Source: Nitrospirota bacterium (GTDB taxonomy: Bacteria > Nitrospirota > Thermodesulfovibrionia > Thermodesulfovibrionales > UBA6898). Taken from it: DNA of 37,702 nt. Below are positions 6,335 through 20,600 of this stretch, piece by piece. Location of the stretch: positions 1 to 37,702 of the forward strand of contig JACRLO010000002.1 in the NCBI GenBank assembly GCA_016235245.1, read 5' to 3'. Made by a program: the position numbers and the translations under genes. Position 1 is the first letter of the stretch. Every line of letters begins with the position of its first letter. The notes under the pieces were generated by a model. That model was not told the DNA's origin. It ran no database searches and saw only the letters and a program-made list of their open reading frames with translations.

Positions 6335-6724
6335 CTAATAGAGCCCCAGCAGGTTTAAGGCAAGAATCAGCAGTCCTGCGACCGCGACTCTTTTGACCAT
6401 CAGGGGGCTTATCCGCTTAGCGATCTGCGGTGCGATAAACCCGCCGAGTATCGCTGCGGGGAACATGATCAGAAACAGGGTGAGATCAAAATTCCCGAAC
6501 TGATAGTGGCGCATTGTGCCCATCAGCGTATTGAAAAAGATGGCCAGAAGCGAACTGCCGACCACAACGTACATAGGCAGGCCGAGCCCCACGGTCATCA
6601 GCGGGACCATGAACGGTCCGCCGCCGAAGCCGAACATGGAGGATATGACTGCGATGATAAAGCCGCCGAGGCAGCCGATGATAAGATTAACCTTGAACTC
6701 ATGTCCCCAGAATGTAACGATCAT
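6335..6724 (-). CDS. Half-size TauE/SafE-type permease, second repeat
   Basis: This 129-aa membrane protein has about four transmembrane segments and carries the glycine-rich motif SSMFGFGGGPFMVPLM, the hallmark of one TauE/SafE repeat. Full TauE/SafE permeases have two such repeats in about 250 residues. This protein has one, and the gene 11 bp upstream encodes the other. The two probably assemble into one transporter. TauE/SafE proteins are proposed to move sulfite, sulfonates or related organosulfur anions. Its ATG at 6724 follows a GGAGGCCTGATATG context. Confidence 0.85.
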   Translation of the reverse strand: MIVTFWGHEFKVNLIIGCLGGFIIAVISSMFGFGGGPFMVPLMTVGLGLPMYVVVGSSLLAIFFNTLMGTMRHYQFGNFDLTLFLIMFPAAILGGFIAPQIAKRISPLMVKRVAVAGLLILALNLLGLY

Positions 6725-6735
6725 ATCAGGCCTCC

Positions 6736-7995
6736 TTATGCCTTTGATTTGGCCGATGCCTCGGCCTTGCTCTTGAATTCCTTCAGTATCGCCTGTTCCT
6801 TTTTGTTTTTGGCAATGTAGCCCGACGTTGTCTGCCAGAACATCAGCCCTGCAAGGACGATCAGTATCCAGCCGAAGACGAACTTGAACTGTTCGAGGGT
6901 GATCAGCTCGGTCAGCTTCGGACCGATGAACCCGCCGACCACCATCGCCAGCCCGATCGCTACCCCGAGCTTCCAGTTGATGAACTTGATCTTCGAGTAA
7001 TTATATATGCCGCTTGCCTGGGAAAATAAAACGGTCGGCATGACCGTCCCTGCCACGATGGTATGCGGCAGAGGCCAGAGCATTACCAGCAGCGGGTTCA
7101 TGATAAAGCCGCCGCCTGCGCCCATCAGAACGCCGAAGATGGCGATGCCGAGGGCCAGAAAAAACGGACCGATGAGGTTCAGGCTGGTGCCGGCATTGCT
7201 TAGATACAGGTTCGGGAAGCTGATCGTATTTTCGAAGGAGACCGGCTGACTCCTGGCGTTCTTGTCTGCAACCGCAACGATGGTATATTTGCCGTCGGCC
7301 ACCCCTTTCCTGATCTTGATTTCTGCCTTGTACGTGCCGTCAGGGTTTGTAACCACATCGGCGCTGAAAACCTTGTCCGGGTTTCTGAAGCGGGCCTTTA
7401 CCAGCTGCATGGAGCGTTTCTTATTGTCCTTGTCGTCCATCTGCGGCAGCAGGTCTCCGCGGGAGCCGATGATACTGCCGGTCAGGGTTGCCTGATAGCG
7501 GTCGATCTTTGCCTTTGCCGGCGCGGAATAGGCGATGTCAGCTCCCATGTCTTTCAGGGCCTGGGAATAGGACCATTTGTTCCCTTCTTTTTTGAACTTG
7601 TCTATAAGTTCTTTCTGTTCTTTCGGCATAAAAATCTTATAGTAGGCCGGCATCTCCAGTGTCATATAGAGCACGTACGGCCGCTTGCCGGTCTCCTTGT
7701 CCTTTTCAGCATCGAAACGGGAGGCCTTAACCTTTTTATCAGACCAGATTTCGAGATAGACCGGTTTACCGGCAGGCGCTGTCCCGGTTACAGTGATTGT
7801 CCCTCCGTTGTTCAGGGTAGTCTTGTCGATCTGGATCGTCGGCGCTCCTGCTGCCTCGGGGGCAGGGACTGCCTCTGCCTTTTGCGCCTGTTGAGGGGCC
7901 GCTTCTTTCGGCTTTTCTGCAAAGGCCCCGTCCTGGATCACAGCTGCCACAGCAGCAAGAATCATGAGTCCGAATACTACAAGGAATCGCTTCAT
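6736..7995 (-). CDS. TauE/SafE-type permease, first repeat, with large periplasmic domain
   Basis: This is a 419-aa protein. The ATG at 7995 is chosen because AAAGGAGGAG precedes it and a signal peptide (residues 1-26, ending GAFA) follows; an open frame extends upstream without support. Residues 40-270 form a soluble, mostly beta region beginning with an Ig-like stretch (IQIDKTTLNNGGTITVTG) and containing a possible internal Ig-like unit near residues 215-265. The C-terminal third has four or five transmembrane segments with VLMGAGGGFIMNPLL, one TauE/SafE repeat. The second repeat is the next gene. It is the first gene after the sigma-54 promoter. The periplasmic domain could capture substrate or a partner protein. 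Confidence 0.82.
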   Translation of the reverse strand: MKRFLVVFGLMILAAVAAVIQDGAFAEKPKEAAPQQAQKAEAVPAPEAAGAPTIQIDKTTLNNGGTITVTGTAPAGKPVYLEIWSDKKVKASRFDAEKDKETGKRPYVLYMTLEMPAYYKIFMPKEQKELIDKFKKEGNKWSYSQALKDMGADIAYSAPAKAKIDRYQATLTGSIIGSRGDLLPQMDDKDNKKRSMQLVKARFRNPDKVFSADVVTNPDGTYKAEIKIRKGVADGKYTIVAVADKNARSQPVSFENTISFPNLYLSNAGTSLNLIGPFFLALGIAIFGVLMGAGGGFIMNPLLVMLWPLPHTIVAGTVMPTVLFSQASGIYNYSKIKFINWKLGVAIGLAMVVGGFIGPKLTELITLEQFKFVFGWILIVLAGLMFWQTTSGYIAKNKKEQAILKEFKSKAEASAKSKA

Positions 7996-8033
7996 ACCAC
8001 TCCTCCTTTGGATTAATGCATTACGTCTGGAGT

Positions 8034-8049
8034 TGCAATAGATGTGCCA
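8034..8049 (-). promoter_or_regulatory. Sigma-54 promoter of the permease/oxidoreductase operon
   Basis: On the minus strand the sequence reads TGGCAC, five bases, TTGCA, a perfect match to the sigma-54 -24/-12 consensus. It ends 38 bp before the ATG of the periplasmic-domain permease. Transcription should start near 8022. The gene immediately upstream encodes a sigma-54-dependent activator. Confidence 0.9.
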
Positions 8050-8131
8050 TGACAGCGGGAAGTCTGCAGGAGAGATTATCCGCTGAAAAGCGGGGTTGGG
8101 GGGAAAAGGGAGATATCGGGATGACGGCCTG

Positions 8132-8149
8132 TTGTCCAAAACGGGACAA
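8132..8149 (-). promoter_or_regulatory. Proximal activator-binding palindrome (UAS1)
   Basis: This is a perfect palindrome, TTGTCC, six bases, GGACAA. Its centre is about 118 bp upstream of the predicted start site, the normal range for an NtrC-type enhancer site. A related copy sits 31 bp further upstream. It is the likely target of the response regulator encoded at 8181-9533. Confidence 0.75.
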
Positions 8150-18522: not shown

Positions 18523-18894
18523 ATGGAAGAGCAAATTGTCTGGGGGAAAAGCCTTGGAAGCGCGCTTGAGCAGGCGCGAAAGGAACATAAGCTTGTGCTT
18601 GCCGCTTTTTTCGGCAAGGACTGCGAGGCATGCATAAGAATGAACAAATGCACATTGATCACCGAAAGCGTTATGGAATACATAAAGAAATATTTTATTG
18701 CTGTTAAATATGAATCAGGCATAGATTCCGAGCAGTTCATGCGTTTCGATGTAACAGCAAAGCCGGCGAGCATTGTGCTTGATGCTTCCGGCAATGAAGT
18801 ATTCAGGAAGATAGGCTATTTTGAGCCTGAGGTATTTATCGAAAAGCTCGAAAAGGCCAGAAAAAAGGCTCTCCACATGGCGGCTGCACACTAG
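18523..18894 (+). CDS. Thioredoxin-like protein with CEAC motif
   Basis: This 123-aa thioredoxin-fold protein has the redox pair CEAC in FFGKDCEACIRMNK and a cis-Pro region TAKPASIVLDASG. There is no signal peptide, so it should be cytoplasmic. It resembles the Thioredoxin_7/DUF255 group rather than classical thioredoxin (no WCGPC). The Glu-Ala between the cysteines is unusual and will alter redox potential. AACGGAGG precedes the ATG at some distance. It is separated from both neighbours and is probably a single-gene unit. Confidence 0.85.
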   Translation: MEEQIVWGKSLGSALEQARKEHKLVLAAFFGKDCEACIRMNKCTLITESVMEYIKKYFIAVKYESGIDSEQFMRFDVTAKPASIVLDASGNEVFRKIGYFEPEVFIEKLEKARKKALHMAAAH

Positions 18895-19425: not shown

Positions 19426-19746
19426 GAGGACCTCCTTTGCTGCTGCATCTCTTGCCTGCTTATAGTCTATGCCGTTTGGACTGGCCCTGCCATGATGCAT
19501 ATCATGCCCAGCTTGGACGGTCTGGAGAGGGGAACAGGGCGGATAGGTCTCGAAATGGTAACTGTAATTATCGGTTAATCTGCAGTCCGAATATCACTTT
19601 GACAGACAGGGATTTCCCTGTTACTGTTTAACGGAGCAGAGGGTTCAGGTCACGAATGAGTCCGGGTTTTCCGGTAAGCAGAGCGAACATAACCGAGGCT
19701 CATCTGCAGGAGCAGCGCATAAATATCATCTATCAGGAGGAGCGTT
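19426..19746. other. Intergenic region between divergent CopD-like and HMA-like genes
   Basis: No gene is seen in these 321 bases. A small hairpin (ACAGGGA/TCCCTGT, 19606-19621) lies in the middle. The end carries the ribosome site AGGAGG of the selenoprotein candidate. Short frames here have no ribosome site. Confidence 0.5.
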
Positions 19747-20055
19747 ATGAAAAAAAGAAAACAGGCTGCTGCGGGTATTCTGATCCTGCTTTTTTTGACA
19801 TTGGCCGGCCTTGTCCATGCCGAAGAGATAAAGGTCAGATTGAGTGTGCCGACCGTATTTTGAGCATCAGCAGCAATGACGGCAAGTTTTGCCGTAGAGG
19901 CCCTTGACGGGGTGAAGAAGGTTGATGATGATCAGGAGAAACATACGCTCACGATCGTTTTTGATGACAGGAAAGTGACTGTTGATGCCATTAAAGAGGC
20001 CCTGATAAAGGCAAACCACAGGGTTGAGGGCAATGGTGAAATAGTGCCGAAGTGA
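19747..20055 (+). CDS. Probable selenoprotein, periplasmic HMA/MerP-like (in-frame UGA = Sec39)
   Basis: AGGAGG precedes an ATG and a 25-residue signal peptide (ILILLFLTLAGLVHA). The frame then reads EEIKVRLSVPTVF, UGA, ASAAMTASFAVEALDGVKKV and continues open for 63 more codons through a heavy-metal-associated-type beta-alpha-beta ending EGNGEIVPK and TGA. The UGA (19861-19863) falls exactly at the first Cys of the usual CxxC metal motif, and the second Cys is Ala. A perfect hairpin begins 15 bases after the UGA. Together these support selenocysteine insertion rather than a stop. The alternative is a pseudogene from a Cys to stop change. Ordinary gene callers would end the protein at 38 residues. 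It could handle mercury, copper or another soft metal, or have a redox role. Confidence 0.7.
19879..19895 (+). promoter_or_regulatory. Bacterial SECIS-like hairpin
   Basis: ACGGCAA, GTT, TTGCCGT forms a perfect 7-bp stem with a three-base loop whose first base is G. The loop starts 22 bases after the in-frame UGA. Bacterial SECIS elements need an apical G near the loop start and a spacing of roughly 16-37 bases, so the fit is good. Confidence 0.65.
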
Positions 20056-20108
20056 GCAATAAGAGTATCTATAAGGAGGATCGCGTTTCAGCGCAATGTA
20101 TGGTGTGT

Positions 20109-20127
20109 TATAATTTTAGAAAAGGAG
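20109..20127 (+). promoter_or_regulatory. hicBA -10 box and ribosome site
   Basis: A perfect TATAAT (20109-20114) is followed by AAAAGGAGG just before the hicB-like ATG. The -35 region is poor (TTTCAG at 17 bases). A leader of only about 10-15 bases is expected. Confidence 0.5.
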
Positions 20128-20133
20128 GATGCC

Positions 20134-20376
20134 ATGGCTGAAATATTTCTGAAGCTGCATCTTGAGGCCCTTGAAGAAGGCGGTTTTGTTGCAACGAGCC
20201 CTGACTTGCCCGGTCTTGTGGCACAAGGCAGAACAATGTCAGAGACCGTGGAAATAGCGCACGATGTTGCGAGGAAACTCTTCGAATCCTACGAAGAGCA
20301 CGGCGACCCTCTTCCTGCCAGCATCAGAAGACCATCAAGAGAGATTGATATCGATATTGCTGTCGGCATTGCCTGA
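20134..20376 (+). CDS. hicB: HicB-like antitoxin
   Basis: This 80-aa protein has the HicB partial RNase H-like fold signature: LHLEALEEGGFVATSPDLPGLVAQGRTMSETVEIAHD. HicB neutralises the HicA mRNA interferase. It lacks the C-terminal DNA-binding domain of longer HicBs, so autoregulation would need the complex or another factor. Its stop overlaps the toxin start (TGATG). Confidence 0.88.
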   Translation: MAEIFLKLHLEALEEGGFVATSPDLPGLVAQGRTMSETVEIAHDVARKLFESYEEHGDPLPASIRRPSREIDIDIAVGIA

Positions 20377-20600
20377 TGGGTCCGCTTGCCGGATTCAGGT
20401 ATAAGGAGGTTGTGCGTAAACTCAGAAATACAGGATTTGTTTTTGACCGTAATGCAAAAGGCAGCCACGAGATCTGGTGGCACCCAACTACCCGCAAAAG
20501 AACCACCATTCCAAACCATCCCGGAGATATTCCTGAAGGCACCTTGAGGGCCATACTGAAACAGGCGGACCTTCCCGTTGAAGAATTTCTGAAATTGTAA
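20376..20600 (+). CDS. hicA: HicA-like mRNA interferase toxin
   Basis: This 74-aa HicA/YcfA-type double-stranded-RNA-binding-fold toxin has the catalytic His in KGSHEIWWHP. It also has the basic stretch TRKRTTIPNHPGDIPEGTLRAILKQADLP typical of the family. It is coupled to HicB by overlapping stop and start. A relic of a second HicA C-terminus occurs at 23718-23763. Confidence 0.9.
   Translation: MGPLAGFRYKEVVRKLRNTGFVFDRNAKGSHEIWWHPTTRKRTTIPNHPGDIPEGTLRAILKQADLPVEEFLKL

Follow-up and report, generated by a model that had tools for sequence, protein, structure and literature searches.

A predicted exported selenoprotein of the HMA/MerP fold in Nitrospirota, with a single selenocysteine at the metal-binding motif

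Selenocysteine in HMA-type proteins and the gene in the window

MerP and CopZ hold metal in a two-thiol clamp. Relatives of the MerP/HMA type that contain selenocysteine (Sec) have already been listed, and reviews of selenoproteins include a UxxU metal-binding protein, a Sec-containing MerT, and a Sec-containing cation ATPase. The UxxU metal-binding (seleno)protein (NF041115), an HMA-type domain with Sec in its metal-binding motif, is listed with two Sec residues (UxxU, PMC13188914), and the MerT/CopZ fusion-like selenoprotein (NF045683) likewise contains an HMA-type domain. The 2008 GOS survey (PMC2398784, Table 2) reports a Sec-containing “mercuric transport protein MerP” with no UxxC/UxxU motif, which derives from two reads of one sample and for which the text shows no sequences. 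For a secreted, single-Sec HMA family lacking a second ligand, we found no description in the open-licence literature and no entry in a 2026 review of prokaryotic selenoproteins. Here, we describe such a single-Sec type, a variant of the listed relatives that we term Sec-HMA, from a gene in a 37,702-nt stretch of a Nitrospirota genome (assembly GCA_016235245.1, contig JACRLO010000002.1, positions 1 to 37,702; hereafter, “the window”).

The Sec-HMA gene occupies a 309-nt frame on the forward strand (19747–20055, 102 codons plus stop) that begins with ATG at 19747, is interrupted by an in-frame UGA at codon 39 (19861–19863, forward strand), continues for 63 codons, and terminates with a second UGA (20053–20055): MKKRKQAAAGILILLFLTLAGLVHAEEIKVRLSVPTVF-UGA-ASAAMTASFAVEALDGVKKVDDDQEKHTLTIVFDDRKVTVDAIKEALIKANHRVEGNGEIVPK-UGA. 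Judged from the sequence, a ribosome-binding site (AGGAGG, 19735–19740, forward strand) lies 6 nt upstream of the start codon. Residues 1 to 25 (19747–19821, forward strand) are assigned to a signal peptide from the sequence and the alignment, and cleavage probably occurs after the residues VHA; by eye, the aligned relatives also have a hydrophobic N terminus ending in an A-x-A type site. If the UGA is translated as an amino acid, residues 32 to 90 match the HMA model of Pfam (PF00403) at 32.6 bits (gathering score, 24.8), in agreement with the first-pass annotation, which had described the 63 codons beyond the UGA as HMA-like. The same annotation had placed the UGA at the first Cys of the motif and an Ala at the second, and both assignments hold: alignment puts U39 at the first position of CxxC (U-A-S-A) and A42 at the last, and there is no Cys in the entire protein.

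The mature, Cys-free domain (19822–20052, forward strand) is predicted by AlphaFold2, run with two sequences, to adopt a beta-alpha-beta-beta-alpha-beta fold in which residue 39 directly precedes a helix spanning residues 40 to 51 (mean pLDDT 79, about 90 for the mature part, with one of five models that good). Foldseek searches pair the prediction with structures of MerP and CopZ, MerP 1osd being the top match (E value, 4.2e-6; TM score, 0.90 by target length). MerP (TIGR02052; PDB 1osd, 1afi), which resembles the window protein in its size, HMA fold, and apparent signal peptide, is its closest described counterpart by Foldseek and also gives the best NCBIfam model, although at 44.9 bits the match falls below the cut-off of 92.55. 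The two differ at the metal site: MerP has a CxxC two-ligand site, whereas the window protein and every other member of its family lack the second Cys. Relative to NF041115 (32.1 bits; cut-off, 95), the window protein has one Sec rather than two and no second ligand, and relative to NF045683 (22.5 bits; cut-off, 375), it is missing the membrane MerT part. The GOS “MerP,” likened here by description only, may or may not belong to the Sec-HMA family.

Conservation of the UGA and of the codons that follow it

When 121 related genomes and 396 genomes of the phylum were searched in all six frames, 24 Sec-type genes emerged in 20 genomes, which represent six families of one Nitrospirota order. Stops are not scattered among these relatives: in all 24 genes, the codon that aligns with Sec39 is UGA, and none has any other internal stop. 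The genome containing the window has a second Sec-HMA copy (contig C6:13509–13817). A search of public contigs with the window protein returned a sole match, a Nitrospirae groundwater MAG (G003), and a comparison with plasmid records returned none. In another genome (G109:C55), two Sec-HMA genes stand in tandem (L053:1227–1508 and 1546–1845), each with a single UGA at the motif position. NF041115 exceeds its cut-off in none of the 121 related genomes; HMA-type matches to this model at G072:C60:6171–6359 and G054:C73:49176–49394 each contain one UGA, which could be a terminal stop or mark a further selenoprotein.

The usual motif among Sec-HMA members is PGIT-U-ASSA, with A, S, G, T, K, or N occupying the position of the second CxxC Cys. 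The 22 Sec members that were checked all have a mature domain free of Cys, which leaves Sec as the sole Cys-type ligand, and they show no conserved His or Met. The earlier suggestion that Sec is the only soft ligand is therefore upheld for Cys-type ligands. In addition to the 24 genes with UGA, the alignment contains one homologue (G019; L026:1498–1806 on contig C1) in which Cys replaces Sec (PEMV-C-ATRA), the second Cys is again absent, and the loop GU of the hairpin described below is missing. This Cys-type gene falls inside the Sec clade, and the clade as a whole separates from MerP and CopZ proteins of the ordinary Cys type with support of 95/95.

Purifying selection acts strongly on the codons beyond the UGA. 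Across the 63 codons following the UGA (codons 40 to 102) in three close orthologues (those of the window, G003, and G002), pairwise dN and dS values are 0.03/0.71, 0.06/0.85, and 0.06/0.74 (dN/dS of 0.045 to 0.08), unlike the signal peptide, in which dN is 0.17. Such constraint downstream of the UGA argues that this codon does not end translation. A lone in-frame stop in one gene would permit the reading that the UGA is a true stop and that the remainder reflects decay, sequencing error, or chance, and neither selA nor selB can be seen in the assembly of this genome. Against a pseudogene or an error stand the sharing of the UGA by 24 genes from independent assemblies with no other stops, the strong constraint past it, and a covarying SECIS element, and we consider this explanation close to impossible; it was rejected on the conserved UGA, the dN/dS values, and the SECIS tests.

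A covarying SECIS hairpin and the selenocysteine machinery

Downstream of the UGA, the window sequence can form a hairpin (19879–19895, forward strand) with a stem at 19879–19884/19890–19895 and a loop at 19885–19889 that contains a conserved GU (19886–19887). The first-pass annotation had pointed to a hairpin with a loop G 22 nt past the UGA, and this G is found at 19886. On folding of the mRNA, the hairpin is present but its energy in the window gene alone is unremarkable: the 60-nt fold has a z score of −0.84, which is uninformative singly, and the evidence for a SECIS element is comparative.

When 22 genes are aligned without gaps over the 45 nt that start at the UGA, the family hairpin falls, counted from the U of UGA, at nt 19–24/30–35 (stem) and 25–29 (loop). 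Stem positions are paired in 91% of cases across the 22 genes, and the stem displays 18 double-sided changes, versus 6.1 ± 2.2 in shuffled alignments (0 of 500), including such compensatory versions as GCGGC/GCCGC, GAGAG/CTCTC, and TAGCG/CGCTA; slid versions of the pairing fail the covariation test. Because column shuffles could mirror the Ala-Ala-Ser motif and G+C-rich pairing that arises from the protein alone, we added a control in which synonymous codons were resampled for 5,000 rounds while each protein was kept fixed. Pairing is 90% as observed and 74 ± 3% under this resampling (0 of 5,000), and the loop GU is present in 21 of 22 genes, versus an expected 3.9 ± 1.8 with proteins fixed (0 of 5,000). 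The Ser codon in the loop is AGU in 19 of 19 cases, and AGU accounts for 19 of the 102 Ser codons elsewhere in the same genes. In the bacterial SECIS elements known so far, SelB recognizes a G and a U of the loop. An Rfam scan of window positions 19500 to 20300 returned nothing. For sequence data alone, this SECIS element is unusually well supported, and the UGA at codon 39 would be decoded as Sec under the direction of the hairpin 16 to 32 nt downstream.

The search for Sec machinery in the window's genome succeeded for two of its components. A tRNA-Sec with a UCA (TCA) anticodon scores 70.9 bits, and SelD (348.6 bits), itself with a catalytic UGA (SSCAG-U-AAKF), adjoins a TsoC-like gene that also contains a UGA. 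Profiles for SelA and SelB produced no match over cut-off in the assembly. These two genes are present and close together in all seven relatives of the same genus, as in G002 (contig C20:27431–31113). Contig C25 of the window's genome matches this G002 contig from the kdsD/kdsC side up to position 8000 and again from position 40001, and the intervening 32 kb (8001–40000) is a run of N in which, judging from synteny on both flanks, selA and selB should lie. Since the syntenic place of the two genes is a run of N, their absence is not counter-evidence, and we discarded it as a refutation; the reservation stands that both genes are placed by synteny and not seen directly in this genome. Nor does co-occurrence say much, given that 112 of the 121 related genomes have selA.

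The UGA might instead be read as another residue, such as Trp, or be passed by unspecific read-through, but no particular observation favors this. The aligned residue in homologues is Cys, the genome encodes both a tRNA-Sec(UCA) and a Sec-containing SelD, the SECIS element is conserved, and UGA also terminates the Sec-HMA gene itself, all of which make this alternative very improbable; as a candidate, it fell to the conserved UGA, dN/dS, and SECIS tests. The overlooked selenoprotein proposed in the first-pass annotation is supported by the conserved UGA, the constraint that follows it, the SECIS element, and the presence of tRNA-Sec and SelD, and on this combined evidence we regard it as nearly certain that the window gene would encode a selenoprotein.

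Gene neighborhoods and the possible role of a lone selenol

Neighbors of Sec-HMA genes differ among most genomes, with few conserved, and any reading of function thus rests on few loci. In the window, as well as in G003, the gene has as a neighbor a Thioredoxin_7-like protein with a CxxC motif (18523–18894, forward strand), a possible partner of the Sec-HMA protein; the window gene also adjoins a divergent membrane protein and a HicBA pair. Directly downstream of the Sec-HMA gene, this pair consists of a HicB-like antitoxin and a HicA toxin (20134–20600, forward strand), of which HicA is well over and HicB under the Pfam cut-off. Elsewhere in the window (6335–8139, reverse strand) are two adjoining membrane ORFs that by eye resemble parts of a TauE/SafE permease, one with a long exported N-terminal region and both without an NCBIfam match. 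In two other genomes, G001 and G005, the Sec-HMA gene comes after ABC/FtsX/HlyD export genes. No mer genes were recognized among the examined neighbors of Sec-HMA genes, part of which were scanned with profiles.

A further notable arrangement occurs in G283 (L137) and G296 (L149), where the operon is ordered ArsR–Sec-HMA–TsoC-like selenoprotein–TauE/SafE–SelD(Sec)–TauE/SafE. The Sec-HMA gene here lies between TsoR-like ArsR and TsoC-like genes, resembling the Tso operon (TsoC NF045708, TsoR NF045707; PMC13188914), although these neighbors fall below the curated cut-offs (38 versus 45 and 39.7 versus 115 bits). The window Sec-HMA gene itself is outside any Tso-type operon; its genome contains a related operon (L154:810–3321, on contig C35 around 104093–106604) ordered ArsR–TsoC-like–SelD(UGA)–TauE/SafE-like, in which the TsoC-like selenoprotein has its UGA at the motif NDPMGKR-U and the Sec-HMA gene is absent. 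Together, the ArsR, TsoC-like, TauE/SafE, and SelD genes of G283 and G296 lean toward the handling of selenium, sulfur, or metalloids over classical mercury resistance.

Compared with a thiolate, a selenolate has greater acidity and is the stronger nucleophile. The window gene would specify an exported protein of the HMA/MerP fold whose sole Cys-type residue, Sec39, sits at the start of helix 1, and we infer that in the periplasm it carries or scavenges a soft electrophile. As a single ligand, the lone selenolate would capture a soft metal ion, or else a species of selenium, sulfur, or a metalloid, and pass it on by ligand exchange, in contrast to the two-thiol clamp of MerP and CopZ. The loss of the second ligand throughout the family points to a selenol that works alone. 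Among the points against this explanation, one ligand by itself binds metal weakly unless a second comes from another molecule of the protein or from a partner, and one close relative (G019) manages with Cys.

The same selenoprotein could be redox active: it would be a peroxidase or reductase with one Sec, would depend on a separate thiol partner to restore its reduced state, and would carry no metal or metalloid. Redox enzymes make up most known selenoproteins (PMC9312934), a thioredoxin-like gene adjoins the Sec-HMA gene in the window and in G003, and an ORF judged from its sequence to be TlpA-like is near the gene in G114. By both profile and fold, however, the domain is HMA/MerP rather than thioredoxin-like; moreover, the thioredoxin-like protein of the window has no visible signal peptide, and no such gene was found within 20 kb around the G002 Sec-HMA gene or near most other members. 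We regard a redox function as unlikely, if more plausible than either alternative to Sec decoding, and moderately favor a periplasmic carrier or scavenger over a redox enzyme. The explanation as a whole, a selenoprotein acting as a periplasmic carrier or scavenger, has in our estimate a probability of roughly 0.6. Its more specific form, in which exported “one-handed” selenolate carriers would ferry species of selenium, sulfur, or metalloids across the periplasm in a Tso/SelD/TauE-type pathway, is a tentative and less probable proposal.

The Sec-HMA proteins add a small, probably exported family to the selenoproteins, one on which no NCBIfam model reaches its cut-off and for which automatic annotation is expected to give 38 residues or nothing. 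Their lone selenol departs from the usual picture, in which an HMA domain acts as a two-cysteine clamp, and the family offers a compact system in which one selenolate can be set against a pair of thiolates, with the Sec-to-Cys member of G019 as a natural comparison protein. If they do act in this way, “one-handed” selenolate carriers would show the metallochaperone fold in a new biochemical role.
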